Below, in pieces: positions 2,358 through 63,686 of a DNA stretch of 64,000 nucleotides (its first letter is position 1; the number at the start of each line of letters is the position of its first letter). Origin of the DNA: Aquilaria yunnanensis (taxonomy: Eukaryota > Streptophyta > Magnoliopsida > Malvales > Thymelaeaceae); assembly GCA_039654915.1 (NCBI GenBank), contig CM077599.1, positions 2,048,501 through 2,112,500 of the forward strand, in the 5' to 3' direction. The position numbers were made by a program, and so were the translations under genes. The notes beneath the pieces were generated by a model. It made no database searches. It was not told the origin of the DNA and saw only the letters and a list, made by a program, of their open reading frames with translations.

Positions 2358-2399
2358 TTTAACTTGAAAGCAAAAAGTTTCAGCTCGTTTTCACTGCCC

Positions 2400-26694: not shown

Positions 26695-26969
26695 CATAGT
26701 GTGGCAACGTCGGGTTTTCTGGAGTCGCCACCAATCGGTTTTCGCTCAGGTCGATTGGATACCTTAAAATATGGTCTGCGAGAGTTCGGGGATCGGGAGT
26801 ACGGTTACGCTAAAACAATATTGTTATAGCGCCCAAAATTGGCACCTTAGTTGATTTTAATTTTGTTTTACTTTGCTTTAAAAAAATTCAGTTAATTTTC
26901 AAACTAGAAATTTTAACTGAATTAGTTGAATGCGGATTTTTGGAAATTAATTTGTATAGAATTTTATAC

Positions 26970-27151
26970 TTCCGAACCATGGACTCTGCCGAGTCATTTG
27001 GACACGGAAGATTTTGATTCCGAACCATGGACTCTGCCGAGTCATTTGGACACAGAAGATTTTGATTCCGAACCATGGACTCTGCCGAGTCATTTGGACA
27101 CGGAAGATTTTGATTCCGAACCATGGACTCTGCCGAGTCATTTGGACACGG
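26970..27151. repeat. 48-bp tandem repeat in the LTR (4 copies)
   Basis: Four copies, the last partial, of a unit containing CCGAACCATGGACTCTGCCG and GAGTCATTTGGACACGG. GACTC/GAGTC and CCA/TGG are self-complementary inside the unit. Diverged single copies occur at about 27247 and 28672. The same array is at 49518-49699. Frames through it are artefacts of the unit length (divisible by 3). Confidence 0.85.
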
Positions 27152-27383
27152 AATTTGGTGAAATTTTAAACAATTTTATCCATATTGTAAAAATATGGAT
27201 TTTTATCTGTTTATTTAATTTGTTTATTTTAAAAAGTTTGATATTTTCCAAACCGTAGATCCTACCGGATCATCCGGATATGGAAATTGATTTATCGTAA
27301 TTATTTAATTCTTATTATTATGAAATTAATTTTTAAATGGTAATTCTTTTTGTTTATGAATGATTTTTAATACTAACTAAAAA

Positions 27384-27790
27384 ATTTATCTTTATATTTT
27401 TTACTTTTTTTTTACTTTCTTTCTTTTTCTTCTTTTTTTACTTATTTTTACTTCTTTTTTAATTTCTTTTAATTTCTTTTCTTTTCTTTCTTTTTTATTC
27501 TTTTCTTTCTTTCTTTGCTTTTTCTTTTTCTTTCTTTTATCTTTCTTTTCTTTTTCTTATATTTCCTTTTTTTCTTTATCTTATCTTTCTTTTATTTTTC
27601 TTTCTTATCTTTCTTTTATTTTTCTTGTCTTTTCTTTCTTTCTTTTCTTATCTTATCTTTTCTTTTATATTTTTTTTATCTTTCTTTTCTTTCTTATCTT
27701 TCTTTTATTTTTGTTTCTTATCTTTCTTTTATTTTTCTTATCTTTCTTTTTTTTCTTGTTTACTTTTTTTGTTTTTCTTGTTTAATGAAA
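27384..27790 (+). repeat. Pyrimidine-rich (CTTT)n tract in the LTR
   Basis: About 400 bp almost purely of T and C on the plus strand (purine-rich in the element's sense). The long open frames it gives are low-complexity artefacts. The same tract is repeated at about 49932-50338. Confidence 0.8.
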
Positions 27791-29039
27791 GATATTTATT
27801 ATTTTAAAGGATTACTCAATTTATAAAAGAATTAAAAAAAATAATAATTAATTTTTATTTAATAAGAAGTTAATTTAAAAGAATTAAAGAGTTTAAAAAT
27901 AAAAATTTTGATCATGGTACGGGGCGTTGTTACTCAGCCAGACCCTCTTCACCAGGTGAAGCAGCTCAAAAGCGGGCACGAGACAGTTTCCAGCCAATAT
28001 ACCATGAACTAAAAAAAATTTTTATTTTTATTTTTATTTTTTATTATTTTTTTATTATTATTTTTTTTTTATTAAGAGAATCAAAAATTTTAAACAAAAG
28101 AAGAAAAGTTTTGATATTTATTTAATTTATTTTTGGAATAAAAGATTATTTAACCGAAAACTTATATGTATTTTAAAACAAAAGTCTTGATATTTTTATT
28201 TTTATATTCTTCTTTGTTTGATGAAAGATTTTTTTTTAATTTTAATTTATATTTCTGAAAATATATCTAATCAATAAGTCAAAAATATTTAAGAGAAAAT
28301 TCAATTATTTTTGTTTTATTTTGTATTATTTTGAAATTATTTGATTAAGATTTTTATAAAGGAAACAAAAAGTTATATCTTTTAATAAGTAAAATATTAC
28401 TGAATAAAATATTAACCCAAAATTTTTATTCTTTTCATTCTTTTTATTAATAAAGAAAACTAAAAAAAAAAATTATATTTTTAAAAGAAATAAATAAAAT
28501 ATTATTGAAAAATATTAACTCAAAAATTTTACGCTTTTTATTCTTTTTAATAAAGAAAACTAAAAAAAATTATATATTAATAGATAATTAATATATTAGT
28601 CTAAAGTTTTTTTTTTATTTTTTATAAAGAAAAAAAAATTTATTTATATATTTTATTTTAAAAATATTTCCGAGCCATGGATCCTGGCGGATCATTTGGT
28701 CATGGAGTTTTAATTAAATTTTTTTATTTCATTAATTATTAATTTTAAAGATGTATTAAAAGAATGGTTTTATGTTTATTTATTTATTTATTTTATTTTT
28801 GAATTATTTCATTATGTTTGTTTATTAAAAGGAATAAAAACTTTGTTTCAAAATAAAAAAAAGTAATTTTTATTAGCCTTTAGAAAATTATTCACATAAA
28901 ATTCCCTTTTTTATCTTTTAATCATAAAAAAAATTCAATTAATAAAGTGGGGCTTTTTGGCCATCCACTTTAATAACACAATAATAATAAAAGTTAGCAC
29001 AATTAATATAGTTAGATTAGTTGGATTAGTTAGTTAATA

Positions 29040-29610
29040 ACAATAAAAAAGGTTAGTAAAAGTTAGATTAAATTAATTAACAACAATAATAAAAATTAGC
29101 CAAGTTTAATTAAATTAATGGTTAACAACAATAATAAAAAGTTAGTCAAGTTAATTAAGTTAATTAATTACAACAAAAATAAAAGTTAGACAATTTAATT
29201 AATTTAATTAATTAACAACAATAATAAAAGTTAGCCAAGTTTAATTAAGTTAATTAATTAACAACAATAAATAAAAATTAACCAAGTTTAATTAAGTTAA
29301 TTAATTAACAACAATAAAAGTTAGCCAAGTTTAATTAAGTTAATTAATTAACAACAATAAATAAAAATTAGCCAAGTTTAATTAAGTTAATTAATTAACA
29401 ACAATAAATAAAAATTAGCCAAGTTTAATTAATTTAATTAATTAACAACAATAAATAAAAGTTAGCCAAGTTTAATTAAGTTAATTAATTACAACAAAAA
29501 TAAAAGTTAGCCAAGTTTAATTAAGTTAATTAATTACAACAAAAATAAAAGTTAGACAATTTAATTAATTATTAACAACAATAATAATAAAGGTTAGTAA
29601 AAATTAGCAA
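29040..29610. repeat. AT-rich 47-bp tandem array in the LTR
   Basis: About ten to twelve imperfect copies of a unit with TTAGCCAAGTTTAATTAAG, TTAATTAATTAACAACAATAA and A-rich spacer. The unit is itself palindromic around TTAATTAATTAA. Counterpart at about 51588-52158 in the other LTR. Confidence 0.8.
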
Positions 29611-29839
29611 GTTAGTTGTTAGTTGCTAATAACAAAAAAAAAAAAGGTTAGTAATAATAACAATAATAAACAAATAAATAAACAAGTAAAAAAAATAAAT
29701 GAGTTAGTTAATTAATTTTCTGCAAAGACAAAATAAAAAGGTTAGTGACCTAATAGAAAGAAATTGAAAAGATGATGGGTGAAACAAGGGTTTACCCTTT
29801 TAGTTTTGAATTTTGAATCCCAGGAAATGAGAACGACGA

Positions 29840-30036
29840 CGGCGCGAGGGGGGGAAGGGAAGGGGCAGCTGGCGGCACGGCCAGGGGCAGGGGGCGACGG
29901 CGTGGGGCACGGGGGGGGGGGGGGGGCCGGCGGTGGGCAGGGGCGACGCGGCGGCGGGCAGGGGTGGCGCCGGGCAGGGGCGGCGGCGGCGGGCGGCGAG
30001 GGGCACGGCGGAGAGAGAGAGAGAGAGAGAGAGAGG
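29840..30036. repeat. GC-rich segment with (GA)n tract in the LTR
   Basis: A sharp switch to G-rich GGCGGCGGGCAGGGG-type sequence, ending in a (GA)n run (about 30011-30034). The frames of up to 113 aa across it and its copy at about 52388-52584 are Gly/Arg or Pro/Ala low-complexity and I do not call them genes. A poly-G run differs slightly in length between the LTRs. Confidence 0.7.
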
Positions 30037-30179
30037 GAACAGCAGTGAAAAAAAATTTGGCTTTCTGGGGAAGAAGGGAAGAGGTCTGGGGCTAAGGGCT
30101 GTAATTTTCTCTTTTTTTTGAAACGGAGCTCTAAGTTTTTTTTCTATTTTTTTATGTGTTCAGCACAAAATTTGGGGGG

Positions 30180-30189
30180 CTATTTATAG
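30180..30189 (-). promoter_or_regulatory. LTR TATA box (3' LTR copy)
   Basis: Minus-strand CTATAAATAG about 510 bp into the LTR, the best TATA box in the U3 part. The functional copy in the 5' LTR is at 52727-52736. Confidence 0.65.
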
Positions 30190-30697
30190 AGGAAGTTTAG
30201 CTGAACTGTTGATGGATAAATTAATAAAAAAATCCAAACTTATCTCTTAAATTGGTAAAATGACAGTTTTAGTCCTTTACGTCTCTCAGCCTCTGGATAA
30301 GTTCCTGAAGCTTCTGATTTTGACAATTTTGTCGTTTTCTGTCAATTTGAGCCAAAAACGTCGGCAGGCTCAAAATTTTATGTGACAAACTGCCAAATGC
30401 TCCTGGAACTTTCAGAATTTGTCAATTTTACCTGAAACTTCTTAATTTTGTCATTTTTACCTCAAACTTTTAAATTTTGTCATTTTTATGGAGTTTTCTT
30501 TTTTTTCTTTCAAACATACATATATACACACATATATCAAATCTTCACAAAACAAAACAAAAAAAAAAAATATATATATTTTAAACTAATTAAAAAAAAT
30601 TTAGTAATAATAATAACAATAATAATAATAATACATTTTTTTAATTTAATTTTTTTTTAAAATTATTTTAATGGCCGGACGAAATTGGGTGTCAACA

Positions 30698-30710
30698 GCT
30701 GCCCCCCTTT
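30698..30710 (-). other. Polypurine tract of the Ogre-type element
   Basis: Minus strand AAAGGGGGGCAGC directly before the 3' LTR start TGTTGACA. The G-rich run is the expected primer for plus-strand DNA synthesis and fixes the element's orientation as minus. Confidence 0.85.
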
Positions 30711-30803
30711 GCATGCTTCATGGGACATGATGTATGCAAAGTTAGTTACCAAATTTCGTCCAGCTTAGCTAGGCATTGAAAACCTTCTCGCCGCCTAAAC
30801 TCT

Positions 30804-33110
30804 GAGGTTTAAGGAAAGGTCCTTAGAACCTCTAACGATAGGAAAGGTTCTATCGTTGTAAGATGGACTGAATGATTGATTGTTTGTTTGAGGTTTAAGG
30901 AAAGGTCCTTAGAACCTCTAACGATAGGAAAGGTTCTATCGTTGTAAGATGGACTGAATGATTGATTGTTTGTTTGAGGTTTAAGGAAAGATCCTTAGAA
31001 CCCCTAACGATAGGAAAGGTTCTATCGTTGTAAGATGGACTGAATGATTGATTGTTTGTTTGAGGTTAAGGAAAGATCCTTAGAACCTCTAACGATAGGA
31101 AAGGTTCTATCGTTGTAAGATGGACTGAATGATTGATTGTTTGTTTGAGGTTTAAGGAAAGGTCCTTGGAACCTCTAACGATAGGAAAGGTTCTATCGTT
31201 GTAAGATGGACTGAATGATTGATTGTTTGTTTGAGGTTTAAGGAAAGGTCCTTAGAACCTCTAACGATAGGAAAGGTTCTATCGTTGTAAGATGGACTGA
31301 ATGATTGATTGTTTGTTTGAGGTTTAAGGAAAGGTCCTTGGAACCTCTAACGATAGGAAAGGTTCTATCGTTGTAAGATGGACTGAATGATTGATTGTTT
31401 GTTTGAGGTTTAAGGAAAGGTCCTTAGAACCTCTAACGATAGGAAAGGTTCTATCGTTGTAAGATGGACTGAATGATTGATTGTTTGTTTGAGGTTTAAG
31501 GAAAGATCCTTAGAACCCCTAACGATAGGAAAGGTTCTATCGTTGTAAGATGGACTGAATGATTGATTGTTTGTTTGAGGTTAAGGAAAGATCCTTAGAA
31601 CCTTTAACGATAGGAAAGGTTCTATCGTTGTAAGATGGACTGAATGATTGATTGTTTGTTTGAGGTTTAAGGAAAGATCCTTAGAACCCCTAACGATAGG
31701 AAAGGTTCTATCGTTGTAAGATGGACTGAATGATTGATTGTTTGTTTGAGGTTAAGGAAAGATCCTTAGAACCTCTAACGATAGGAAAGGTTCTATCGTT
31801 GTAAGATGGACTGAATGATTGATTGTTTGTTTGAGGTTTAAGGAAAGGTCCTTGGAACCTCTAACGATAGGAAAGGTTCTATCGTTGTAAGATGGACTGA
31901 ATGATTGATTGTTTGTTTGAGGTTTAAGGAAAGGTCCTTAGAACCTCTAACGATAGGAAAGGTTCTATCGTTGTAAGATGGACTGAATGATTGATTGTTT
32001 GTTTGAGGTTTAAGGAAAGGTCCTTGGAACCTCTAACGATAGGAAAGGTTCTATCGTTGTAAGATGGACTGAATGATTGATTGTTTGTTTGAGGTTTAAG
32101 GAAAGGTCCTTAGAACCTCTAACGATAGGAAAGGTTCTATCGTTGTAAGATGGACTGAATGATTGATTGTTTGTTTGAGGTTTAAGGAAAGATCCTTAGA
32201 ACCTCTAACGATAGGAAAGGTTCTATCGTTGTAAGATGGACTGAATGATTGATTGTTTGTTTGAGGTTAAGGAAAGATCCTTAGAACCTCTAACGATAGG
32301 AAAGGTTCTATCGTTGTAAGATGGACTGAATGATTGATTGTTTGTTTGAGGTTTAAGGAAAGGTCCTTAGAACCTCTAACGATAGGAAAGGTTCTATCGT
32401 TGTAAGATGGACTGAATGATTGATTGTTTGTTTGAGGTTTAAGGAAAGGTCCTTAGAACCTCTAACGATAGGAAAGGTTCTATCGTTGTAAGATGGACTG
32501 AATGATTGATTGTTTGTTTGAGGTTTAAGGAAAGGTCCTTAGAACCTCTAACGATAGGAAAGGTTCTATCGTTGTAAGATGGACTGAATGATTGATTGTT
32601 TGTTTGAGGTTAAGGAAAGATCCTTAGAACCTCTAACGATAGGAAAGGTTCTATCGTTGTAAGATGGACTGAATGATTGATTGTTTGTTTGAGGTTTAAG
32701 GAAAGGTCCTTAGAACCTCTAACGATAGGAAAGGTTCTATCGTTGTAAGATGGACTAAATGATTGATTGTTTGTTTGAGGTTAAGGAAAGTTCCTTAGAA
32801 CCTCTAACGATAGGAAAGGTTCTATCGTTGTAAGATGGACTGAATGATTGATTGTTTGTTTGAGGTTTAAGGAAAGTTCCTTAGAACCTCTAACGATAGG
32901 AAAGGTTCTATCGTTGTAAGATGGACTGAATGATTGATTGTTTGTTTGAGGTTTAAGGAAAGGTCCTTAGAACCTCTAACGATAGGAAAGGTTCTATCGT
33001 TGTAAGATGGATTGAATGATTGATTGTTTGTTTGAGGTTTAAGGAAAGGTCCTTGGAACCTCTAACGATAGGAAAGGTTCTATCGTTGTAAGATGGACTG
33101 AATGATTGAT
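30804..33110 (-). repeat. 86-bp satellite array (about 27 copies) near the 3' LTR
   Basis: About 27 head-to-tail units of 86 bp (some 85 bp, with GAGGTTAAGG instead of GAGGTTTAAGG). Each contains self-complementary pieces: AAGGA/TCCTT, AGAACCT/AGGTTCT and AACGATA/TATCGTT around a short loop. Variants (GGTCC/GATCC/GTTCC, TTAG/TTGG, CCTCT/CCCCT) recur in an order suggesting an eight-unit higher-order repeat. Variable satellites before the 3' LTR are known in Ogre elements. No coding content. Confidence 0.95.
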
Positions 33111-33295: not shown

Positions 33296-33811
33296 AAATT
33301 TATATGAAAGTAATTGAAATTGGAATAATTTTCTTCGAAAGTGTGAATTTTCATAATAGGTGAGTGCAAAAATTTAAACTTCGATAAGATGAGTGAATCT
33401 TGATGATGACAATAACACTGACAAATTATGTAAAGGGAACGGATGTTTGGAATCAATATCCAAGGTTCATCTAATATTTTCTTCAGTAAATATAGATTCC
33501 CTTGTGAGATATGTCATCCAAATAAGGTTAAAGCTTAACTACCCCAAAATGTTATGCCTAGTAGACCTAATAGGATGCGTCTCAAGAGTAATAAAAATTA
33601 CTCTTTACTCAGCCATTCCAACCTAAAGGCATTGTCGCATGGTTTTAATATCAGCATGGACGAAACTATCTTATATATAAAAAAAAGAAATTCCCTGAAA
33701 AGAAAAACTGAAACGCGAAAGAAAATGCTGATAATAAAACTAAAGGACAAGAAAAACGGATCAGATAGCTTCTTTCTTCCACAATACTTCAACAGGGTGA
33801 GTAGAGGACCA

Positions 33812-34441
33812 TTATGGGAGTGAACTGGTCGGGAAAGACTGTCGTGTCCAGTCTATCTGAATCATTGCTGGATCTGGTTCAGGAACAAAAGCTTGTATTT
33901 TATCTAGCAATTCTTCAGCAGTTGTTGCGGATATTATGATTCGCCGTGCCACTCTTGATATGAAATTCTTCTGCATAGCATAATCCATAAAAGCTATCAG
34001 ACCTGTAAAGAAATTGTTAACATTTAAAAGCCCAATGGGTTTCTTATGCAAATTAAGTTGGGCCATGGAAGCAATTTGAAAGACTTCTCCCAACGTGCCA
34101 AAACCACCTGGTAGAGCGATAAAAGCATCAGCATTTAAAAGCATTTGTAACACACGCTCTTGCAAATTTTTAACCACTAATTCTTCTCCAATCGTGCCCC
34201 CAGAAATAAATTTCAGAGGTCCAGGGATAATACCCAGAACTTGACTTCCTCCTAGAGATGCTGCTGATGCTACATCTCCCATTAATCCGACACTACCTCC
34301 TCCATAAACTAAATGTATTTTTCGCTCAGCTAATACTCTTCCCAAATGGTTGGCTGCTTTTAAATACTCTTCATCTTTTCCAGGAAAAGCCCCAGAAAAT
34401 ACACAAATACTTCGGGATTTACGAGTTGGGGTTTTCTCCAT
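33812..34441 (-). CDS. LOG: LOG-type cytokinin riboside 5'-monophosphate phosphoribohydrolase (retrotransposon cargo)
   Basis: Role: LOG enzymes release active cytokinin bases from their riboside monophosphates, usually in the cytosol. Seen: 209 codons from the ATG at 34441, a normal LOG length. The Rossmann-like start is ICVFSGAFPGKDEEY, followed by HLVYGGGSVGLMG and LGIIPGPL, then an Arg in the LQERV helix and the signature PGGFGTLGE (PGGxGTxxE, catalytic Glu kept), then KPIGLLNVNNFF. The usual GTLEE is GTLGE here and the common QRK is QER, so activity is likely but unproven. Start choice: an in-frame extension to 34528 is open, but a TATA box at 34474-34482 lies inside it, so the shorter form fits. 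Plant LOG genes normally have several introns; this copy has none, which points to capture through RNA. It lies in the same sense as the retrotransposon, downstream of pol. Confidence 0.93.
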   Translation of the reverse strand: MEKTPTRKSRSICVFSGAFPGKDEEYLKAANHLGRVLAERKIHLVYGGGSVGLMGDVASAASLGGSQVLGIIPGPLKFISGGTIGEELVVKNLQERVLQMLLNADAFIALPGGFGTLGEVFQIASMAQLNLHKKPIGLLNVNNFFTGLIAFMDYAMQKNFISRVARRIIISATTAEELLDKIQAFVPEPDPAMIQIDWTRQSFPTSSLP

Positions 34442-34473
34442 TCCTATCCTTATCCTTGTGAGAAAAGAGGATA

Positions 34474-34482
34474 TATTTATAG
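34474..34482 (-). promoter_or_regulatory. TATA box of the LOG cargo gene
   Basis: Minus strand CTATAAATA, 33 bp upstream of the LOG ATG (34441). It matches the TATA boxes before Cys-rich copies 1-3, suggesting an independent promoter. The short distance implies a very short leader. Confidence 0.6.
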
Positions 34483-34529
34483 AGATGAAGAGATAAGGCA
34501 ATAATTTTATTTTCAAGAGTGGATACATT

Positions 34530-35415
34530 ATTGCCAGCTATACACAGTAGTCACGAGTATGACTCTGGTCAGGTATGGGTACACTATCGTTAAAAGAGGA
34601 GGAAAATTTTCAAAATAGCTGCTAGCATGTACAGTAGTCACTACTGTAGCTTACGTCAGGAGTAGGTATGTGATTGTTGGAAGGGAAGGAAAATTTCAAA
34701 AGTGGCAGCTATATACAGTAGTCCGTGTCAGGAGTGGGTACATTATTGCCAAAGGGGAGGAAAATTTCAAAAGCGACAGCTAGCACGTACAGTAATCGTA
34801 ACTATGGCTCATGTCAGGAGTGGATACATTATCACTGAAAGGGGAGGAAAATTTCAAAAGCGACAGCTAGTACGTACAGTAATCGTGACTTTGGTTCACG
34901 TCAGGAGTGGATACATTATTACCAAAAGGGGAGGAAAATTTCAAAAGCGACAGCTAGTACGTACAGTAATCGTGACTTTGGTTCACGTCAGGAGTGGATA
35001 CATTATTACCAAAAGGGGAGGAAAATTTCAAAAGCGACAGCTAGCACGTACAGTAATCGTAACTATGGCTCATGTCAGGAGTGGATACATTATCACTGAA
35101 AGGGGAGGAAAATTTCAAAAGCGACAGCTAGTACGTACAGTAATCGTGACTTTGGTTCACGTCAGGAGTGGATACATTATTACCAAAAGGGGAGGAAAAT
35201 TTCAAAAGCGACAGCTAGTACGTACAGTAATCGTGACTTTGGTTCACGTCAGGAGTGGATACATTATTACCAAAAGGGGAGGAAAATTTCAAAAGCGACA
35301 GCTAGTACGTACAGTAATCGTGACTTTGGTTCACGTCAGGAGTGGATACATTATTACCAAAAGGGGAGGAAAATTTCAAAAGCGACAGCTACCACGTACA
35401 GTAATCGTGACTTTG
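34530..35415 (-). repeat. 87-bp repeat array upstream of LOG
   Basis: About ten units; those near LOG are more diverged. Each has, on the plus strand, a GTCAGGAGTGG(A)TACATTAT start, GGGGAGGAAAATTTCAAAAG and GACAGCTAGTACGTACAG. Minus-strand TGACGTGAA (bZIP-type ACGT core) occurs in at least five units. The units resemble the spacers between the Cys-rich genes (AGCTGTC, AATAATGTA), so the array looks amplified from a spacer/promoter. The 248-aa plus-strand frame across it is an artefact of the 87-bp period. Confidence 0.85.
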
Positions 35416-35463
35416 ATCCTCGTCTTCCACTGGCTTTGCGTCCAGTAATGGCTTCAATGTTTT

Positions 35464-36012
35464 CTATGAATCGGTGATTTGCATCTCATCTAGCTTTCTC
35501 ACAAACTGGCAAACAGGGTCGTTTAGGGTCAGATTCCCAAGACTGTAACGATCTCGTTCTTTTTGGAAAATTATCCATAATCCAACAACCTCAAATTGCA
35601 CTATTCCACAAGAATGCGCTTCAAGAACCTCTCGAATATCTTCTAGAGATTCCTTACGCAAGCCATTCTTAATGAATCTTATTCTATCATTACGATTTCT
35701 GGTGATCACTCCTGGAGCACGACATTTATTGCCGCAAATCCACCATCCACAATTATGACAAACGCCTAGCCTCTTTGCTCTTCTTTTTTTGGCATAAGCG
35801 CTTTTACCAAAGCCGGGCATACGGGGAAAGAACGCTTCGGGAACTTCACCAGCTGAACGAACCTTAGCTTCAATTAGCCACCGCACATTATCAGGAATGC
35901 CTTTGTGCATAAATACTCTGAATCGTTCACATCTAGCTTGATAAATCTTTTTAAGAACATTTATTGGGAAGGAAGGAAAATACTTTCGTAGGGCGGAAAG
36001 AGAAGACTCCAT
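35464..36012 (-). CDS. Basic Cys-rich C4 zinc-finger-like protein, cargo copy 1
   Basis: Seen: 182 codons from the ATG at 36012, the start aligned with the other three copies; an in-frame ATG at 36027 adds five residues. A central basic patch YAKKRRAKRLG is followed directly by CHNCGWWICGNKC, that is C-X2-C-X4-C-X3-C, and a conserved tail with NDPVCQFVRKL. The basic patch plus C4 finger resembles the small nucleic-acid-binding proteins of carlaviruses (Carla_C4 type; suppressors of RNA silencing and gene regulators), though this protein is longer. That link is my pattern recognition, not a database result. Other possibility: a plant or retrotransposon zinc-finger family. The gene is followed by the 87-bp array and LOG, and preceded by a TATA box at 36072-36079. 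Confidence 0.75.
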   Translation of the reverse strand: MESSLSALRKYFPSFPINVLKKIYQARCERFRVFMHKGIPDNVRWLIEAKVRSAGEVPEAFFPRMPGFGKSAYAKKRRAKRLGVCHNCGWWICGNKCRAPGVITRNRNDRIRFIKNGLRKESLEDIREVLEAHSCGIVQFEVVGLWIIFQKERDRYSLGNLTLNDPVCQFVRKLDEMQITDS

Positions 36013-36071
36013 TGATGAAGGAGGCAAAGAAAGAAATTAGTGATTGTAGGAAACGAACATAACTAACACAT

Positions 36072-36079
36072 ATTTATAG
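36072..36079 (-). promoter_or_regulatory. TATA box of Cys-rich copy 1
   Basis: Minus strand CTATAAATA about 60 bp upstream of the ATG at 36012, in the 216-bp spacer after copy 2. An AATAAA signal lies just upstream at 36099-36104 (minus) and could serve the 3' end of copy 2. Confidence 0.6.
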
Positions 36080-36228
36080 TGACGAAAGGGATAATGCGTT
36101 TATTACACTTACAGAAGCAAGTACATTATTGTCAAAAGAAAAGACAAATGACAGCTTATATGTACAGCAATCATGACTGTGGCTCTCATCTTCCACTGAT
36201 TTATGTCTAGTAACGGCTTCAATGCCTT

Positions 36229-36777
36229 CTATAAGTCGGGGATTTGCTTCCCATCCAGTTTTCTTACAAACTGGCAAACAGGGTCATTAAAAGTTAGATT
36301 TCCAAGACTGTAACGATCCTGTTCTTTACGGAAAGTCCACCATAAATCCATAATTTCCCATTGCACTATTTCACAAGAATGTGTTTCAAAAGTTAATAGG
36401 ATATCATCCAAAGATTCCTTACGCAGGCCATTCTTGATGAATTTTCTTTTATCTTCATGATTTCTGGAGATGTATCCTAAAAAGCGACATTTAGTATTAC
36501 AATTCCATCGTCCACATTTATGACAGACACCAAGCCTCTTTGCTCTTCGCTTTTTGGCATAAGCGCTTTTACCAAAGCCGGGCATACGGGGAAAGAACGC
36601 TTCTGGAACTTCACCAGCTGAACGAACCTTAGCTTCAATTAGCCACCGCACATTGTCAGGAATGCCTTTGTGCATAAAGACTCTAATCCTTTCACATCTA
36701 GCTTGGTAAATCATTTTAAGAACATTTATTGGGATGGAAGGAAAGTATTTTCGCATGGCGGAAAGAGTAGAATCCAT
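36229..36777 (-). CDS. Basic Cys-rich C4 zinc-finger-like protein, cargo copy 2
   Basis: Seen: 182 codons, intact. Residues 73-83 are the basic patch YAKKRRAKRLG; Cys85, Cys88, Cys93 and Cys97 form the C4 finger (CHKCGRWNCNTKC). The N-terminal 50 residues are amphipathic (KYFPSIPINVLKMIYQARCER) and the C-terminus keeps NDPVCQFVRKLDGKQ. The other copies differ by scattered substitutions, yet length, Cys spacing and basic patch are unchanged. This suggests selection on the protein rather than a very recent duplication. A TATA box at about 36883-36891 sits about 110 bp before the ATG. Proposed role: RNA or DNA binding, perhaps counter-silencing (inference). Confidence 0.75.
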   Translation of the reverse strand: MDSTLSAMRKYFPSIPINVLKMIYQARCERIRVFMHKGIPDNVRWLIEAKVRSAGEVPEAFFPRMPGFGKSAYAKKRRAKRLGVCHKCGRWNCNTKCRFLGYISRNHEDKRKFIKNGLRKESLDDILLTFETHSCEIVQWEIMDLWWTFRKEQDRYSLGNLTFNDPVCQFVRKLDGKQIPDL

Positions 36778-36881
36778 TGATAAAAGAAGAATTTGAGAGA
36801 AGAGATGAAGAAATCAGTTATTGTAGGAAACTGAGAGTCAGAGAGTATTGCATCCGCTACTTAACCGGAAAGAAGAACACG

Positions 36882-36891
36882 CATTTATAGC
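36882..36891 (-). promoter_or_regulatory. TATA box of Cys-rich copy 2
   Basis: Minus strand GCTATAAATGC in the 255-bp spacer between copies 3 and 2. It is followed by CCGGTTAAG(T/C)(A/G)GCGGAT and TCTCTGACTCTCAG, a leader block also found upstream of copy 4. Confidence 0.6.
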
Positions 36892-37032
36892 GATGAAAGG
36901 ATAACGTGTTAATTACGCTTACAGGAACAAGTATATTAAAAGAAAAGACAAATGACAGCTTATATGTACAGGAATCATGACCGTGGCTCTCATCTTCCCC
37001 TGATTTATGTCCAGTAATGGCTTCAATGCCAT

Positions 37033-37581
37033 CTATAAGTCGGGGATTTGCTTCCCATCCAGTTTTCTTACAAACTGACAAACAGGATCGTTTAAAGTCA
37101 CATTCCCAAGACTGTAACGGTTTCGTTCTTTATGGTAAGTCCTCCATAAACTGATAATTTCACCTTGCACTTTTCCACAAGAATGCGTTTCAAGAGTCTC
37201 TCGGATATCTTCCAGAGATTCCTTACGCAGGCCATTCTTAATGAATTTTCTTTTATCTTCACGATTTATGGAGATGTATCCTAAAGAGCGACATTTAGTA
37301 ATACAATTCCATCGCCCACATTTATAACACACGCCTAGTCTCTTTGCTCTTCGCCTTTTGGCATAACGGCTTTTACCTAAACCGGGCATGCGGGGCATAA
37401 ATGCATCTGGAACTTCACCCGCCAGACGGACCTTAGCTTCAATTATCCACTGCACATTATCGGGAATGCCTTTGCGTGTAAAAACTCTGATTCTTTCACA
37501 TCTAGCAAAGTAGATCTTTTTAAGGACTTTTATTGGAAAGGAAGGAAAGTATTTTCGCAGTGCAGAAAGAGTAGAATCCAT
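37033..37581 (-). CDS. Basic Cys-rich C4 zinc-finger-like protein, cargo copy 3
   Basis: Seen: 182 codons, intact, with the basic patch YAKRRRAKRLG and the finger CYKCGRWNCITKC at the same positions as copy 2. Differences from copy 2 are spread along the protein (for example IYFARCERIRVFTRKG near the N-terminus and a Lys/Arg-rich tail). It has its own TATA box at about 37662-37669, about 85 bp upstream. It belongs to the four-gene tandem array and is transcribed in the retrotransposon sense. Confidence 0.75.
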   Translation of the reverse strand: MDSTLSALRKYFPSFPIKVLKKIYFARCERIRVFTRKGIPDNVQWIIEAKVRLAGEVPDAFMPRMPGLGKSRYAKRRRAKRLGVCYKCGRWNCITKCRSLGYISINREDKRKFIKNGLRKESLEDIRETLETHSCGKVQGEIISLWRTYHKERNRYSLGNVTLNDPVCQFVRKLDGKQIPDL

Positions 37582-37660
37582 TGATGAGAGAAGAATTTGA
37601 GAGAAGAGGGAAATGAATCAGTTATTGAAGGAAACTTAGATAACCGACTGGAAGAACATG

Positions 37661-37670
37661 CATTTATAGC
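37661..37670 (-). promoter_or_regulatory. TATA box of Cys-rich copy 3
   Basis: Minus strand GCTATAAATG in the 246-bp spacer between copies 4 and 3, with the same surrounding block (TTTCATCGCTATAAATGC) as before copy 2. Confidence 0.6.
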
Positions 37671-37827
37671 GATGAAATGGATAACGTGTCGATTACACTT
37701 ACGGGAGCAAATACATTATTAAAAGAAAAATGGAAAATTTTAAATATGATAAATTGTATGTACAGTGATTGTGACTGTGGCTCACATCTTCCACTGGTTT
37801 TACGTCCAGTAACGGGATTAATGGCTT

Positions 37828-38376
37828 CTATGAGTCGAGGATTTGCTTCCCATCCAGTTTTCTTACAAGCTGACAAATAGGGTCGTTTAATGTCAGATTC
37901 CCGGGACTGTATCGTTCTCGTTCTTCATGAAAAATGCTCCATAAATCGAGAAGTTCACGTTGCACGGATCCACAAGAATGCGTCTCAAGAGTCAATTGGA
38001 GATCATCCAATGAGTCCTTACTCAGGCCATTCTTAATGAATCGTATTTTATCTTCTCGATTATCAGAGATCATCCCTAAAGAACGACATTTAGTATTACA
38101 GGTCCAGCGTCCGCATTTATGACAGACGCCTAGTCTCCTCGCTCTTCGTTTTTTGGCATAAGAGCTTTTGCCTACACCAGGCATGTGAGACACAAATGCC
38201 TCTGGGATTTCACCTGCCAGACGAACCTTAGCTTCAATTAACCACCGCACATCTTCAGGGATTCCTTTATGCATCAGAGCTCTTAATCGTTCACAGCGAA
38301 CTTGGTAGATCTTTTTGAGGATGTTCATTGGGAGAGAAGGAAAATATTTTCGCAAGGCAGAAAAAGTAGGATCCAT
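37828..38376 (-). CDS. Basic Cys-rich C4 zinc-finger-like protein, cargo copy 4
   Basis: Seen: 182 codons, intact; first of the array in transcription order and the most diverged. Basic patch YAKKRRARRLG and finger CHKCGRWTCNTKC are kept. The tail reads NDPICQLVRKLDGKQ. Upstream (38377-38520) it shares the CCGGTTAAGCGGCGGAT leader block with copy 2, but at the TATA position it has AAAATAAAG, a poor match, so its promoter may be weaker or it may depend on element-wide transcription. Family assignment as for the other copies: resemblance to carlavirus C4 nucleic-acid-binding proteins, unproven. Confidence 0.74.
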   Translation of the reverse strand: MDPTFSALRKYFPSLPMNILKKIYQVRCERLRALMHKGIPEDVRWLIEAKVRLAGEIPEAFVSHMPGVGKSSYAKKRRARRLGVCHKCGRWTCNTKCRSLGMISDNREDKIRFIKNGLSKDSLDDLQLTLETHSCGSVQRELLDLWSIFHEERERYSPGNLTLNDPICQLVRKLDGKQILDS

Positions 38377-39803
38377 TTTCTAGGAGAAAGTAAAAGAAAG
38401 GAGGGAGGAAATGATCAGTTATTATGGGCAACTGAGAGAACCGACTTGAGAGTCACGGAGTACCGTATCCGCCGCTTAACCGGAAAAGTGAATCCTACTT
38501 TATTTTGATGTGATAGATATTCCATCCAGCTGACGTCGATTCAGTCCTTGATTATTGAATCCATTGTCCGCTTTTGACGAATTTTCAACGACAATATTTC
38601 TTGATGTCTGCCTTATCTTTGACGATAGCTATCACTCATCTTGGATGCTGCTAAGCTGGCATCAATTCTGTTCTTTTAGGTGTAGCCTCAATTGCCAGGC
38701 TTTTGACGAATTTTCAACGACAATATTTCTTGATGTCTGCCTTATCTTTGACGATAGCTATCACTCATCTTGGATGCTGCTAAGCTGGCATCAATTCTGT
38801 TCTTTTAGGTGTAGCCTCAATTGCCAGGCTTTTGACGATATTGTATGCTTTATCCTTGGATTCCTGATGGGGCTGGGTCCAGCGTATTAGCTATGCGTCC
38901 AATTAGTAAGAGCTGATGTCATTAAGATCTCAGCTTATACTGCTGCAATCATGCTGCGGACATGCTTTTCATTTGATCCCTGTTATGTAAAAGCCATGCA
39001 TGCATGATGTGAAATGCATGAATGCAAGGCATGTGTAACTGATGTTTTTTTTTTTTTTTTTTTTAATCTAGCTCTTCATGTCTTTGCTTTACTTTACTGG
39101 ATCTTCTTTGTGATTTCCTTCTCGGACTATTATTGAATCTCTTTATGCTTTCCAGCTGTTGTCCATTGTCTCAAAAGCCCAACTCTGTTCAAAAATCCTC
39201 TTTCCTTGCCTTATTTTTGAATTTTGACCTCAATTTTCTTTAATGCCCGCCTCATATTTTATGCTTCTCTGGATAATTGTCCTTGTTGAAATATTCGTGA
39301 GCATGATTCTTTCCTGCTAACATAGACATGTTAAGACTTCTGAAATGATCATTCAGGCTACCACCAAGGCTATCTCCCAAAGATTTGTTACTCCTTCTTC
39401 TTTGTTAGCCTATGTTCTGTGCTGCTCGCAAAGCAGGACCTCAATCTTACCTGTTTTAATTCACAAAGCTTATCAAAGTAATCTACGGTCTTTGTTTTTT
39501 TCTAAGTTTTAATTATTACTATTCTTCCTTCAAAAGTCACAATTTATTGCACACTTAAGGCTAGTAGGAATGTGAGATTTAAAGGAAAAGAACTGGATAG
39601 AAGCGACTTTAGCATTTTGAACGTGAGAATCTAAGGTAAGTTAAAGAGAATTGGCTTTTATTTATGGGTAAAAGAATATGAAAATCTTGGGTACAGATAG
39701 ATAATGAAAGTGTAAGGGAAGAAAGCTCTCTTTGACAACTTTGATCAAATAAACTTTGGTAACCCTGTATCCACTTCTCCCCTTCTGTTCGAAAATTTCT
39801 TCA
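38377..39803 (-). other. Element DNA between pol and the cargo genes
   Basis: Contains the leader of Cys-rich copy 4 (38377-38520), a 129-bp direct duplication (about 38573-38830) and a poly-T run (39044-39065). No further coding frame or domain recognised. It could hold the 3' end of the gag-pol transcript. Confidence 0.5.
38573..38845. repeat. 129-bp tandem duplication
   Basis: Two practically identical copies of a segment starting CTTTTGACGAATTTTCAACG and ending GTAGCCTCAATTGCCAGG, followed by the beginning of a third. The identity implies recent duplication. The plus-strand frame through it is a by-product of the period (43 codons). Confidence 0.9.
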
Positions 39804-43202: not shown

Positions 43203-43233
43203 TCTTTCATTGTCATCAAAGAGAGTTTTGGGT

Positions 43234-43431
43234 CTGCATTATCCAGAGAGAAAAGAAAGAGAAGAAAAAAAAATGGCACGAATGAGATGGATGCAAACTG
43301 GTACTTTATTTACAATGTGCATAAATCACAACTTTATTGGAATAAAAAGCAATAACTAAAAGGTTCACTTAAACAAAGACTACACCCTATTGATTGAACC
43401 TTTCTTTAGGAGGTTTTTACTATTAGATTAC
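43234..43431 (-). other. Predicted 198-bp intron between Gag-Pro and Pol
   Basis: Donor AAA|GTAATC (intron from 43431) overlaps the Gag-Pro stop. The acceptor, after a long pyrimidine tract, is ...TAATGCAG|ACCC (intron ends 43234). Removing it joins the Gag-Pro Lys codon (AA+A) in frame to PKTLFDDNERMNFDNP, the start of Pol. The unspliced frame has at least six in-frame stops, so simple read-through cannot give Pol. Ogre elements are known to use such an intron. Confidence 0.75.
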
Positions 43432-46927: not shown

Positions 46928-48622
46928 TTAAAAGAAACGACCCAAAGTACAATACTGCTTTCTGGCCTTAGATATGAACTCCATCATTCTTTGAACATTT
47001 ACTGATGGAGTAGGACAGCTCAGTTCTTCTAACTCCTTGGCTTCTTCGCCCATTAGTTGGGCTTGTTCTGTAACTTTTCTGACTTCTACCAAAAATGTTT
47101 GCAATTGATCTTGAGAAAATCTGTATTGATCTTCCCAGTATCTGACTCTCATCTCTTTTTGATCGGTTTCATCAACCAATTGGGAGATGACTTGTTTTTG
47201 GTATTCAACTTTCTCTTCGAGGAGTTGTGTTTTGTGACCGAGCTGTTGCATGTCAAGGAGCATCCTCTTGTTCTTCTCCTTTTCTTCCTCTAGTTCTTTC
47301 TCCAACTCTCTTTTCGCCAATTTTCTGATGACCTCTTCAGATAGAACTATTCCTTCCTTCCGGTTATTTCTCCATTCATAATAAGCAGTGGGAGAAATAA
47401 TAGGCCCCGACTTCAATATGAAAATTCTTTTCCACGCAACTGAAATACCCATTGCGAGCTTATTTGAATTTGGATCTTCGTGTGAAAATTCCAACTTACT
47501 CAGATTATGCGTCATGGGTATAAATTGCATGGACCCAAATTGTTTTCGTACTTGAGCTGGGGCATAACTTGTTCCTCCCCATATACCTAAGAGAGGAACC
47601 CACGGGCAATTGCCGCATCGGTAGACAACGCGGGTGGAGGTAGACCAGGGGGCTCTCCATTCAATTTGGAATTCGGTGATGTTCTTGAAATAATCAACCC
47701 ATGCTTCCTTACTGTCGTGATGAATGGTTTCACTTTTCAAAAAGGCTTCGATTGGGATGAAGTCCTTTGAAAAGCGATTTCCAAAATGTTGCTTCTCACA
47801 AGGAAGGTGGCTTTTGATCCAAATGTTGAGGAGATGTGAACATCCTATGAATTTGCCCCCTCTTTGGCGACAAAAGTTTAATGCCCTGATAGTTTCACAT
47901 AATATTACTGAGGTCGGATTTATTTGAGCATTGCAGATTTGCTCAAATAGTGTAATGATGTCTCCTTCAATGAATCCGACGATTCTTGGGAAGACTACCA
48001 GGCCATATATCGCCAAGGCGAAAAGCTTGCGTCGTTGATTTTTCTGAGGGAGAACGTGACTTAATTGTTTTAAGTCGATCCAACTGATAAATTTTCGAGA
48101 TCCTTTTGTTGCAAACTTGGTTTGAAGACTGGAAGCTGGCATATCCAATAATTTTGCTAGGGCTCGATGAGGCTCCGTTCTTCTATCATGTTGATAAGTC
48201 TCGATTGGATAGTCGGAGGACCAACCCAAGAGGCTGTTGTATTCTTCAATGGTTGGAACCAGATCCATCTTATCGAAAGAAAAGCATCGATAAAATGGAT
48301 CCCAAAATTGTATTAGAGCCCGGACAAGTGATGCATCAACGGTAACCTTTAGTAGGCAAGTGATGTGACCATATTTTGCCGTAAAAGCTTCCCGATCAGT
48401 AGAATTCCAACTATTCCAGACTTGCAACAATTCCGTGGTGTCGTTCTGATTTATCCGAACCGATACCTGGTCCTTAAGCTGTACGTGAGAATGGGATGTC
48501 AGAGCATCTCCGTGAAGCTTTTGAGCCGTTTCGGAATATTCCATAGCTTCAGGCTGAGTTTCGATTACCGTGTCATTCCATGATCCAGTAACAGCCGTGG
48601 GAAGATAATCGAGAATATCCAT
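46928..48622 (-). CDS. ORF1 of the Ogre-type element (plant-specific protein)
   Basis: 564 codons, intact, between the primer site and gag. Conserved-looking stretches: FWDPFYRCFSFDKMDLVPT and EEYNSLLGW (about 110-130), RKLFALAIYGLVVFPR, EGDIITLFEQI and WGTSYAPAQVRKQFG (the last read with one Gly more in the text). A long charged coiled coil follows near the C-terminus (about 430-540; LEKELEEEKEKNKRM). Known: Ogre/Tat elements carry an extra ORF upstream of gag. This one looks like what I believe is the DUF7745 family (plant-mobile-domain-like). Its function is unknown; a role in RNA or particle handling is a guess. The start at 48622 is the first Met of the open frame. Confidence 0.9.
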   Translation of the reverse strand: MDILDYLPTAVTGSWNDTVIETQPEAMEYSETAQKLHGDALTSHSHVQLKDQVSVRINQNDTTELLQVWNSWNSTDREAFTAKYGHITCLLKVTVDASLVRALIQFWDPFYRCFSFDKMDLVPTIEEYNSLLGWSSDYPIETYQHDRRTEPHRALAKLLDMPASSLQTKFATKGSRKFISWIDLKQLSHVLPQKNQRRKLFALAIYGLVVFPRIVGFIEGDIITLFEQICNAQINPTSVILCETIRALNFCRQRGGKFIGCSHLLNIWIKSHLPCEKQHFGNRFSKDFIPIEAFLKSETIHHDSKEAWVDYFKNITEFQIEWRAPWSTSTRVVYRCGNCPWVPLLGIWGGTSYAPAQVRKQFGSMQFIPMTHNLSKLEFSHEDPNSNKLAMGISVAWKRIFILKSGPIISPTAYYEWRNNRKEGIVLSEEVIRKLAKRELEKELEEEKEKNKRMLLDMQQLGHKTQLLEEKVEYQKQVISQLVDETDQKEMRVRYWEDQYRFSQDQLQTFLVEVRKVTEQAQLMGEEAKELEELSCPTPSVNVQRMMEFISKARKQYCTLGRFF

Positions 48623-49226: not shown

Positions 49227-49244
49227 TCCCCAGTGGAGTCGCCA
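49227..49244 (-). other. tRNA-Arg primer binding site
   Basis: Minus strand TGGCGACTCCACTGGGGA, three bases after the 5' LTR end (49248). It is complementary to the 3' end expected for a plant tRNA-Arg, the usual primer of Ogre/Tat elements. Confidence 0.85.
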
Positions 49245-49247: not shown

Positions 49248-52200
49248 TGTGGCAACGTCGGGTTTTCTGGAGTCGCCACCAATCGGTTTTCGCTCAGGTC
49301 GATTGGATACCTTAAAATATGGTCTGCGAGAGTTCGGGGATCGGGAGTACGGTTACGCTAAAACAATATTGTTATAGCGCCCAAAATTGGCACCTTAGTT
49401 GATTTTAATTTTGTTTTACTTTGCTTTAAAAAAATTCAGTTAATTTTCAAACTAGAAATTTTAACTGAATTAGTTGAATGCGGATTTTTGGAAATTAATT
49501 TGTATAGAATTTTATACTTCCGAACCATGGACTCTGCCGAGTCATTTGGACACGGAAGATTTTGATTCCGAACCATGGACTCTGCCGAGTCATTTGGACA
49601 CGGAAGATTTTGATTCCGAACCATGGACTCTGCCGAGTCATTTGGACACGGAAGATTTTGATTCCGAACCATGGACTCTGCCGAGTCATTTGGACACGGA
49701 ATTTGGTGAAATTTTAAACAATTTTATCCATATTGTAAAAATATGGATTTTTATCTGTTTATTTAATTTGTTTATTTTAAAAAGTTTGATATTTTCCAAA
49801 CCGTAGATCCTACCGGATCATCCGGATATGGAAATTGATTTATCGTAATTATTTAATTCTTATTATTATGAAATTAATTTTTAAATGGTAATTCTTTTTG
49901 TTTATGAATGATTTTTAATACTAACTAAAAAATTTATCTTTATATTTTTTACTTTTTTTTTACTTTCTTTCTTTTTCTTCTTTTTTTACTTATTTTTACT
50001 TCTTTTTTAATTTCTTTTAATTTCTTTTCTTTTCTTTCTTTTTTATTCTTTTCTTTCTTTCTTTGCTTTTTCTTTTTCTTTCTTTTATCTTTCTTTTCTT
50101 TTTCTTATATTTCCTTTTTTTCTTTATCTTATCTTTCTTTTATTTTTCTTTCTTATCTTTCTTTTATTTTTCTTGTCTTTTCTTTCTTTCTTTTCTTATC
50201 TTATCTTTTCTTTTATATTTTTTTTATCTTTCTTTTCTTTCTTATCTTTCTTTTATTTTTGTTTCTTATCTTTCTTTTATTTTTCTTATCTTTCTTTTTT
50301 TTCTTGTTTACTTTTTTTGTTTTTCTTGTTTAATGAAAGATATTTATTATTTTAAAGGATTACTCAATTTATAAAAGAATTAAAAAAAATAATAATTAAT
50401 TTTTATTTAATAAGAAGTTAATTTAAAAGAATTAAAGAGTTTAAAAATAAAAATTTTGATCATGGTACGGGGCGTTGTTACTCAGCCAGACCCTCTTCAC
50501 CAGGTGAAGCAGCTCAAAAGCGGGCACGAGACAGTTTCCAGCCAATATACCATGAACTAAAAAAAATTTTTATTTTTATTTTTATTTTTTATTATTTTTT
50601 TATTATTATTTTTTTTTTATTAAGAGAATCAAAAATTTTAAACAAAAGAAGAAAAGTTTTGATATTTATTTAATTTATTTTTGGAATAAAAGATTATTTA
50701 ACCGAAAACTTATATGTATTTTAAAACAAAAGTCTTGATATTTTTATTTTTATATTCTTCTTTGTTTGATGAAAGATTTTTTTTTAATTTTAATTTATAT
50801 TTCTGAAAATATATCTAATCAATAAGTCAAAAATATTTAAGAGAAAATTCAATTATTTTTGTTTTATTTTGTATTATTTTGAAATTATTTGATTAAGATT
50901 TTTATAAAGGAAACAAAAAGTTATATCTTTTAATAAGTAAAATATTACTGAATAAAATATTAACCCAAAATTTTTATTCTTTTCATTCTTTTTATTAATA
51001 AAGAAAACTAAAAAAAAAAATTATATTTTTAAAAGAAATAAATAAAATATTATTGAAAAATATTAACTCAAAAATTTTACGCTTTTTATTCTTTTTAATA
51101 AAGAAAACTAAAAAAAATTATATATTAATAGATAATTAATATATTAGTCTAAAGTTTTTTTTTTATTTTTTATAAAGAAAAAAAAATTTATTTATATATT
51201 TTATTTTAAAAATATTTCCGAGCCATGGATCCTGGCGGATCATTTGGTCATGGAGTTTTAATTAAATTTTTTTATTTCATTAATTATTAATTTTAAAGAT
51301 GTATTAAAAGAATGGTTTTATGTTTATTTATTTATTTATTTTATTTTTGAATTATTTCATTATGTTTGTTTATTAAAAGGAATAAAAACTTTGTTTCAAA
51401 ATAAAAAAAAGTAATTTTTATTAGCCTTTAGAAAATTATTCACATAAAATTCCCTTTTTTATCTTTTAATCATAAAAAAAATTCAATTAATAAAGTGGGG
51501 CTTTTTGGCCATCCACTTTAATAACACAATAATAATAAAAGTTAGCACAATTAATATAGTTAGATTAGTTGGATTAGTTAGTTAATAACAATAAAAAAGG
51601 TTAGTAAAAGTTAGATTAAATTAATTAACAACAATAATAAAAATTAGCCAAGTTTAATTAAATTAATGGTTAACAACAATAATAAAAAGTTAGTCAAGTT
51701 AATTAAGTTAATTAATTACAACAAAAATAAAAGTTAGACAATTTAATTAATTTAATTAATTAACAACAATAATAAAAGTTAGCCAAGTTTAATTAAGTTA
51801 ATTAATTAACAACAATAAATAAAAATTAACCAAGTTTAATTAAGTTAATTAATTAACAACAATAAAAGTTAGCCAAGTTTAATTAAGTTAATTAATTAAC
51901 AACAATAAATAAAAATTAGCCAAGTTTAATTAAGTTAATTAATTAACAACAATAAATAAAAATTAGCCAAGTTTAATTAAGTTAATTAATTAACAACAAT
52001 AAATAAAAGTTAGCCAAGTTTAATTAAGTTAATTAATTACAACAAAAATAAAAGTTAGCCAAGTTTAATTAAGTTAATTAATTACAACAAAAATAAAAGT
52101 TAGACAATTTAATTAATTATTAACAACAATAATAATAAAGGTTAGTAAAAATTAGCAAGTTAGTTGTTAGTTGCTAATAACAAAAAAAAAAAAGGTTAGT

Positions 52201-53244
52201 AATAATAACAATAATAAACAAATAAATAAACAAGTAAAAAAAATAAATGAGTTAGTTAATTAATTTTCTGCAAAGACAAAATAAAAAGGTTAGTGACCTA
52301 ATAGAAAGAAATTGAAAAGATGATGGGTGAAACAAGGGTTTACCCTTTTAGTTTTGAATTTTGAATCTCAGGAAATGAGAATGACGACGGCGCGAGGGGG
52401 GGAAGGGAAGGGGCAGCTGGCGGCACGGCCAGGGGCAGGGGGCGACGGCGTGGGGCACGGGGGGGGGGGGGGGCCGGCGGTGGGCAGGGGCGACGCGGCG
52501 GCGGGCAGGGGTGGCGCCGGGCAGGGGCGGCGGCGGCGGGCGGCGAGGGGCACGGCGGAGAGAGAGAGAGAGAGAGAGAGAGGGAACAGCAGTGAAAAAA
52601 AATTTGGCTTTCTGGGGAAGAAGGGAAGAGGTCTGGGGCTAAGGGCTGTAATTTTCTCTTTTTTTTGAAACGGAGCTCTAAGTTTTTTTTCTATTTTTTT
52701 ATGTGTTCAGCACAAAATTTGGGGGGCTATTTATAGAGGAAGTTTAGCTGAACTGTTGATGGATAAATTAATAAAAAAATCCAAACTTATCTCTTAAATT
52801 GGTAAAATGACAGTTTTAGTCCTTTACGTCTCTCAGCCTCTGGATAAGTTCCTGAAGCTTCTGATTTTGACAATTTTGTCGTTTTCTGTCAATTTGAGCC
52901 AAAAACGTCGGCAGGCTCAAAATTTTATGTGACAAACTGCCAAATGCTCCTGGAACTTTCAGAATTTGTCAATTTTACCTGAAACTTCTTAATTTTGTCA
53001 TTTTTACCTCAAACTTTTAAATTTTGTCATTTTTATGGAGTTTTCTTTTTTTTCTTTCAAACATACATATATACACACATATATCAAATCTTCACAAAAC
53101 AAAACAAAAAAAAAATATATATATATTTTAAACTAATTAAAAAAAATTTAGTAATAATAATAACAATAATAATAATAATACATTTTTTTAATTTAATTTT
53201 TTTTTAAAATTATTTTAATGGCCGGACGAAATTGGGTGTCAACA
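49248..53244 (-). repeat. 5' LTR of the Ogre-type element
   Basis: A 3997-bp LTR, almost identical to 26700-30697. Differences I saw: positions equivalent to 27054, 29433, 29820 and 29833 (single substitutions) plus lengths of a G run and an A/TA run. A TATA box lies at 52727-52736 (minus CTATAAATAG). It drives the full element transcript toward lower coordinates. A shorter second primer-site-like TGGCGACTCCA lies near its end (49268-49278). Confidence 0.95.
52727..52736 (-). promoter_or_regulatory. LTR TATA box driving the Ogre-type element
   Basis: Minus strand CTATAAATAG about 510 bp inside the 5' LTR. Transcription start expected near 52700, giving an R-U5 leader of about 3.4 kb. Confidence 0.65.
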
Positions 53245-53249
53245 CATAG

Positions 53250-63640: not shown

Positions 63641-63686
63641 CACCAGTACCATAATCAAGCTGTCGAGGAGGCTCTTGAGGAGCAAG

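Follow-up and report, generated by a model that had tools for sequence, protein, structure and literature searches.

Why should a plant long terminal repeat (LTR) retrotransposon carry, behind its pol gene, a gene of the LOG type and four copies of a gene whose products resemble the nucleic-acid-binding proteins of flexiviruses? The question is posed by a complete 26.5-kb element on the minus strand, at positions 26700–53244 of a 64-kb stretch of the Aquilaria yunnanensis genome (assembly GCA_039654915.1, contig CM077599.1, positions 2,048,501–2,112,500; G+C content 34%), which we call the window. In the sense of the element, the order after pol and up to the 3' LTR is C4a, C4b, C4c, C4d and LOG (Table 1). 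A first-pass annotation had described a young Ogre-type element with five intact sense-strand cargo frames between pol and the 3' LTR, at least four of them with a TATA box of their own, and had tied the C4-finger proteins to the nucleic-acid-binding families of carlaviruses. Our analyses agree: the LTRs are nearly identical and flanked by a target site duplication (TSD), a second RNase H and a two-frame layout with a 225-bp spacer are present, all five cargo frames are intact, C4b, C4c, C4d and LOG have TATA boxes, and each of the four C4 proteins scores above the Pfam cut-offs of both Carla_C4 (PF01623) and Viral_NABP (PF05515).

RNA silencing keeps the LTR retrotransposons of plants in check, and it is largely an open question whether they have dedicated counter-defence genes. 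We consider it an evenly balanced matter whether this young Ogre-type element carries its C4 and LOG genes as a cargo whose products, together, likely serve as counter-defence and host-state factors that aid the element's expression. Under this explanation, C4b, C4c, C4d and LOG would be transcribed from their own TATA promoters, and the basic C4 proteins would bind RNA or DNA and either weaken RNA silencing or activate transcription, in the manner of carlavirus cysteine-rich proteins. We judge counter-defence to be the most likely function of the C4 proteins, with transcriptional activation as its main rival. LOG could add cytokinin, the active form of which it would make, favouring dividing cells where new insertions get inherited.

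The C4 paralogues are under long-term purifying selection. Their six pairs give dN/dS ratios of 0.20–0.40 (bootstrap upper bounds at most 0.61) at dS 0.38–0.90, and these ratios rule out, for C4, the neutral evolution that the first-pass annotation, speaking of all five frames, had named as fatal to its proposal. Compared with the LTR divergence of ~0.001, such dS values make the C4 array hundreds of times older than the insertion, with four frames kept open, and the array has thus come intact through many transpositions. The proteins are basic (isoelectric points 9.5–10.1), C4b–d are 69–73% identical to C4a, and all four have a C-X2-C-X4-C-X3-C finger with a basic patch resembling a nuclear localization signal (NLS), K(K/R)RRA(K/R)R, immediately ahead of it (YAKKRRARRLGV and similar). 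Of the 1620 candidates in a profile search, 384 reach E<=0.01; among the best 120, which were listed, 101 have the finger pattern, 103 the basic patch and 68 a length of exactly 182 amino acids (aa), and the named genera are Xanthoceras, Rhamnella, Populus and Acer. A tree of 109 rows groups the four window proteins with P0001 and P0002 under one supported node; P0001 lies beside C4a and is 96% identical to it, P0002 beside C4d (89%). Intact relatives of the C4 cargo genes therefore exist in other contigs.

The link to viruses extends beyond the window: in an alignment of 56 proteins (A2), PF05515 is matched by 49 and PF01623 by 47 (E<=0.01). Like the flexivirus cysteine-rich (CRP) and nucleic-acid-binding (NABP) proteins of these families, among them CVB p12 and PVH CRP, the C4 proteins are small and basic, with a C4 finger immediately preceded by an NLS-like patch; unlike them, they are 182 aa long, with a finger spacing of their own, and are retrotransposon-borne and tandemly repeated. 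The family is thus related to the flexivirus NABP and CRP families, yet we do not class it as a carlavirus-type CRP because, although the Pfam relation holds, the carlavirus finger spacing is not found. A search of the viral structures of BFVD with a weak, low-confidence C4 model (pLDDT 64.3; a first model, at pLDDT 54.7, had been discarded as too poor) gave 36 matches at E<=10. Among the best 17, 14 are annotated as silencing suppressors or nucleic-acid-binding proteins of plant viruses, which we take to be flexivirus proteins; the others are the 15-kDa protein of Cherry mottle leaf virus, a betaflexivirus hypothetical protein and one nameless entry. Since the search method also scores amino acids, we treat the result as a sequence-supported hint of a viral link rather than proof of a fold. 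Profile scans of viral contigs with alignments A1 and A2 found no relative, and a PDB sequence profile search with A1 returned two chance-level rows. As to function, CVB p12 is described as switching on transcription when nuclear and countering silencing when cytoplasmic (PMC7588395), and PVH CRP as a suppressor of local silencing (PMC3689765).

A second carrier of the C4 gene came from one scan of genome contigs, in which one of 145 pattern matches was confirmed. This contig, L001 (3.3 kb, 1–3330, DAIEQH010000041.1), is filed in a metagenome-assembled genome record of Candidatus Nomurabacteria and is likely plant retrotransposon DNA contaminating a public bacterial genome record. It holds a gypsy-type integrase frame (466 aa) and, ~200 bp on and in sense, a C4 gene whose protein passes Viral_NABP; because the integrase frame has no RVT_3 match and the bases ahead of it read, by eye, as RNase H, the second RNase H of Ogre-type elements is missing, and we take the element to be Athila-like. 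The LOGL4-bearing elements described by Steinbauerova in 2011 are reportedly Athila-like. The DNA of L001 matches the window's C4a cassette over 746 columns (73.9%, E=6e-128), spanning leader, gene and trailer. With gap columns excluded, 95 of 112 letter pairs agree in a global comparison of the leader (38377–38500) and 70 of 91 in the trailer, each at z 15 against shuffles, whereas the coding regions stand at dN 0.20, dS 1.03 and pS 0.56; that the flanks are more alike than the synonymous sites points to constraint on the untranslated regions. Directly before the leader, L001 has a pyrimidine tract ending in TGCAG, with no TATAAA at 1501–1800, and the corresponding place in the window holds the TATA boxes (degenerate in C4a). 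Because a 3' splice-site-like sequence thus precedes the same leader, the C4 gene of L001 would more likely be expressed from a spliced downstream message.

The two carriers differ in how far their genes have diverged. The integrases of the window and L001 are 34% identical, and at fourfold-degenerate sites 14 of 46 are identical in the integrase and 25 of 47 in C4a, against a fraction of 0.32 expected at saturation for both; the bootstrap interval of the difference in pS is 0.09 to 0.34. As the silent sites of the integrase are saturated and those of C4 are not, the C4 cassette probably moved from one retrotransposon lineage to another when the polyproteins of the two were already divergent. 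A Rhamnella gene model, in which an integrase piece 70% identical to that of L001 over 111 residues is joined to a C4 protein, is an independent hint that the integrase–C4 arrangement is real.

In the window, the TATA boxes (CTATAAAT) lie 87, 112, 66 and 40 bp before C4b, C4c, C4d and LOG, respectively; C4a has no box, the position that aligns with the others holding just a degenerate match. Given 12 octamers of this type on both strands of the 64 kb, finding one within 113 bp of four of five gene starts has P ~6e-8 under independence, a value that overstates the case because the three C4 boxes look like copies of one another. The 87-bp tandem repeats upstream of LOG resemble the intergenic DNA ahead of C4b, C4c and C4d (z 11.6, 4.8 and 10.1 against shuffles) and show no likeness to that ahead of C4a (z 0.9). 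The shared stretch was first taken to be a promoter module; as L001 shows part of it to be conserved C4 trailer, its promoter function stays putative. An antisense, plus-strand frame of 248 aa at 34702–35448 is mostly the 87-bp (29-codon) repeat read through, and TGACGTGA, presumably a bZIP-type motif, occurs five times on the minus strand of the array. Upstream of C4a, a 129-bp unit is tandemly duplicated (100% matches) at 38570–38838. An Rfam scan of 33300–39800 gave no match at E<=1.

The LOG protein aligns with Arabidopsis At2g37210 (2a33) over 196 residues at 46% identity (E=1e-51); its 209 aa are counted from the ATG that fits the starts of other LOG proteins, the mechanical open reading frame (ORF) being 238 aa, just as the mechanical listing gives C4d as 187 aa with a TTG start. 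GGGxxGLMG and PGGxGTxxE, the LOG signature, are both present. A profile search, with 8000 candidates scored, found 990 proteins at E<=1e-40. The best 120 include 36 dispersed Reevesia copies and smaller groups from Diplodiscus, Populus and Paulownia, species-wise expansions that, with the dispersed Reevesia copies, fit the expectation for a mobile gene. The closest partner in another contig, P0121, is 91% identical over 89%. In the LOG tree, the separateness of the LOG group is judged against two Arabidopsis outgroups only. C4 and LOG may travel together elsewhere: in the range of 2–13 kb, the longest-contig sizes of the C4 list (40 values) and the LOG list (20 values) have 8723, 4511 and 2128 in common, against 0.16 shared sizes expected under a length-jitter null (P=0.0005), and for size 4511 both trees put the proteins in a Populus-containing group. 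Coincidences below 2 kb were as many as chance gives and were not counted. The pattern suggests that the two genes are linked in other contigs too.

Several points weigh against the explanation of the cargo set out above, the shared cassette included. CVB p12, the best-studied viral relative, is termed in PMC12172455 a transcription factor that causes hyperplasia and suppresses silencing weakly, and in older work cited in PMC3689765 it failed to suppress silencing that had been induced locally. Carlavirus fingers share the basic motif and C4 layout, but their spacings, C-X2-C-X9-C-X4-C in PVH CRP (PMC3689765, excerpt) and C-X2-C-X12-C-X4-C in JaVC (PMC8839810, excerpt), have loops of X9 or X12, then X4, which are longer than the X4 and X3 of the window finger; the C4 protein of L001 narrowly misses the Carla_C4 cut-off (20.4 versus 20.9 bits). 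No BFVD match reaches E<=0.001, with TM-scores of 0.11–0.27 by query length in the best 17, and a PDB structure search with the same model gave three matches, all at E>=3.9. Two C4 leaders fold no better than shuffled RNA. LOG, with P0121, sits on a long branch (0.47), and PGGxGTxxE is absent from 11 and GGGxxGLMG from 17 of the 120 listed LOG relatives. Finally, L001 is a single contig that could be chimeric, the Rhamnella model being the only second case.

Some of these points fit other explanations. The C4 proteins could serve the element's own cycle, for example by activating the LTR and the internal promoters in the nucleus or by chaperoning RNA in the way of a nucleocapsid protein, with the shared upstream modules as binding sites; the activator role and weak suppression reported for CVB p12 agree with this, as do the basic patch beside the finger and the upstream module that C4b, C4c, C4d and LOG share, which ahead of LOG has expanded into about eight units of 87 bp. 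However, the module is not found before C4a, and it overlaps the conserved C4 trailer, so tandem duplication by itself may account for the sharing; on balance, we find this explanation possible but doubtful. The long LOG branch would also suit an accidental transduction of a host LOG and a flexivirus-derived gene, persisting only through the youth of the copies, and LTR elements are known to capture host genes (PMC7264820). For C4, such passenger status is already contradicted by dN/dS of 0.19–0.40 over dS 0.38–1.16 (L001 included), by four paralogues being open and by the length of exactly 182 aa in 68 of the 120 listed relatives; with PGGxGTxxE present in 109 of the 120 listed LOG relatives, we deem accidental capture improbable as a whole. 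Very unlikely, in our view, is that the C4–LOG block is a nested fragment of another, Athila-like element, inserted in this Ogre copy and foreign to its family. While C4 in L001 does come soon after pol, behind an integrase frame without the second RNase H, the long L001 DNA matches are, among the matches listed, confined to the four C4 units, and the remaining ones are short and of low complexity; nor does the region between pol and the LTR contain any of three purine-tract strings like those of L001. Moreover, the four tandem units, at dS 0.38–0.90, predate the insertion, and C4a, C4d and LOG have relatives elsewhere. A cargo of counter-defence and host-state factors remains the explanation that we prefer.

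The carrier itself is recent. The LTR pair differs at 6 of 3998 aligned columns (five substitutions and a one-base gap), the 5-bp duplication CATAG stands on both flanks, and with assumed rates of 4e-9 to 1.3e-8 the insertion is ~0.05 to 0.16 million years old; ORF1, gag-pro and pol are all open. The primer binding site may be of the tRNA-Arg type, the type used by Ogre elements; a tRNA scan found no tRNA anywhere in the 64-kb window. The 86-bp array next to the 3' LTR is the kind of repeat that seeds satellites. According to PMC6317226, Ogre elements have, after the usual RNase H and ahead of the integrase, another RNase H of archaeal type, a feature common to Retand, encode gag-pro and the reverse transcriptase (RT), RNase H and integrase in two ORFs with a mean separation of 274 bp, and in 57% of cases carry an extra ORF with a plant mobile domain. 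Here RVT_3 (residues 570–680 of pol) lies between RT_RNaseH (403–505) and Integrase_H2C2 (770–827), the two ORFs are separated by the 225-bp spacer and a plant-mobile-domain ORF is present. On these structural grounds we call the element Ogre-type (Tat, Ty3/gypsy).

Table 1. Features of the retrotransposon and its cargo (window coordinates).
Feature	Position	Strand	Details
3' LTR	26700..30697	-	3998 bp; 99.85% identity to 5' LTR; TSD CATAG at 26695-26699
Polypurine tract AAAGGGGGGCAGC	30698..30710	-	just ahead of 3' LTR
86-bp tandem array	30803..33110		26.9 copies, 98% matches; between LOG and 3' LTR
LOG-type protein, 209 aa, intronless	33812..34441	-	PF03641 E=2e-30, 105.9 bits; TATA box 34475-34482
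87-bp tandem repeats upstream of LOG	34544..35440	-	34727-35415 holds 7.9 units; further, proximal units are diverged
C4d, 182 aa	35464..36012	-	Pfam; TATA box 36072-36079
C4c, 182 aa	36229..36777	-	Pfam; TATA box 36883-36890
C4b, 182 aa	37033..37581	-	PF05515 E=3e-7; TATA box 37662-37669
C4a, 182-aa basic C4-finger protein (flexivirus NABP family)	37828..38376	-	PF01623 E=1e-6, PF05515 E=1e-6
C4a leader, conserved, 5' untranslated region-like	38377..38487	-	L001 DNA match starts at 38487
pol ORF, 1132 aa	39804..43202	-	RT, RNase H, second RNase H (RVT_3), integrase (Pfam)
gag-pro/pol spacer, 225 bp	43203..43427	-	pyrimidine-rich 3' splice-site-like end; Ogre intron position
gag-protease ORF, 1103 aa	43428..46739	-	PF03732 E=3e-11, G-patch; protease by sub-cut-off Pfam match only
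ORF1, 564 aa, DUF7745 / plant mobile domain, upstream extra ORF	46928..48622	-	PF24924 E=5e-56; PF10536 35.2 bits (cut-off 34.9)
Primer binding site TGGCGACTCCACTGGGG	49228..49244	-	read from sequence
5' LTR	49248..53244	-	3997 bp; TSD CATAG at 53245-53249

Outside the element, the window contains an ORF of 644 aa resembling an EF-Ts polyprotein with S1 domains (423–2357, minus strand), the best eight matches of which are from Malvaceae (the top one 58% over 81%). Two plus-strand ORFs were judged by eye: we take the 103-aa ORF at 7080–7391 to be a remnant of a Copia GAG-pre-integrase, and that at 63675–63998, running off the window, presumably encodes a plant S40/senescence-regulator-like protein.

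The first-pass annotation knew of no described element with this combination of genes, and within the open-licence PMC literature searched that holds; in the same literature, no report of C4 proteins in retrotransposons was found. The two Pfam families are named in 3 of 5.39 million papers, which to judge by their titles are two glyoxalase surveys and one on a soybean carlavirus. AlkB domains occur in some plant viruses too. In Phalaenopsis, giant Gypsy elements sister to Ogre have acquired an AlkB m6A demethylase, likewise an RNA-directed protein possibly bearing on host control; they differ from the window element in the protein family and, in the excerpt of PMC9289625, in the in vitro activity shown for AlkB. 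The parts of the combination are not peculiar to this element: C4 also occurs after another integrase type, and LOG has already been reported in plant LTR elements, as a LOG/YgdH extra domain in Citrus and Populus (Steinbauerova 2011 as cited in PMC9289625). Those elements share with ours a LOG-type gene on a plant LTR element; the available excerpt of PMC9289625 mentions no C4 genes in them, and the carrier here is Ogre-type. Retand elements with TRP28 ORFs (PMC11963269) carry these in antisense, whereas the C4/LOG cargo of the window is in sense. With the Ogre lineage as portrayed in the excerpt of PMC6317226, the element shares, besides the archaeal-type RNase H, the short intron-like spacer between the two ORFs and the upstream plant-mobile-domain ORF, the multi-kb LTRs, tandem repeats and large size; it differs in having several sense-strand cargo genes downstream of pol and ahead of the 3' LTR, four of the five preceded by a TATA box. 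Extra ORFs in LTR elements are thus known, and what is new is a virus-related and apparently exchangeable C4 gene.

On a broader and more tentative view, to which we lend limited credence, LTR elements of eudicots may share a horizontally exchanged cassette in which silencing suppressors of the flexivirus type are often accompanied by LOG, and which changes hands between Ogre and Athila-like elements. The elements would then perhaps be the reservoir out of which the viral suppressors arose, parasites that in the manner of viruses switch off silencing and redirect the division of host cells. A suppressor-related family found in at least four named rosid genera, selected where this is measurable and apparently exchanged, makes the question of counter-defence testable by a routine leaf assay, and the same family bears on the origin of the cysteine-rich proteins of flexiviruses.

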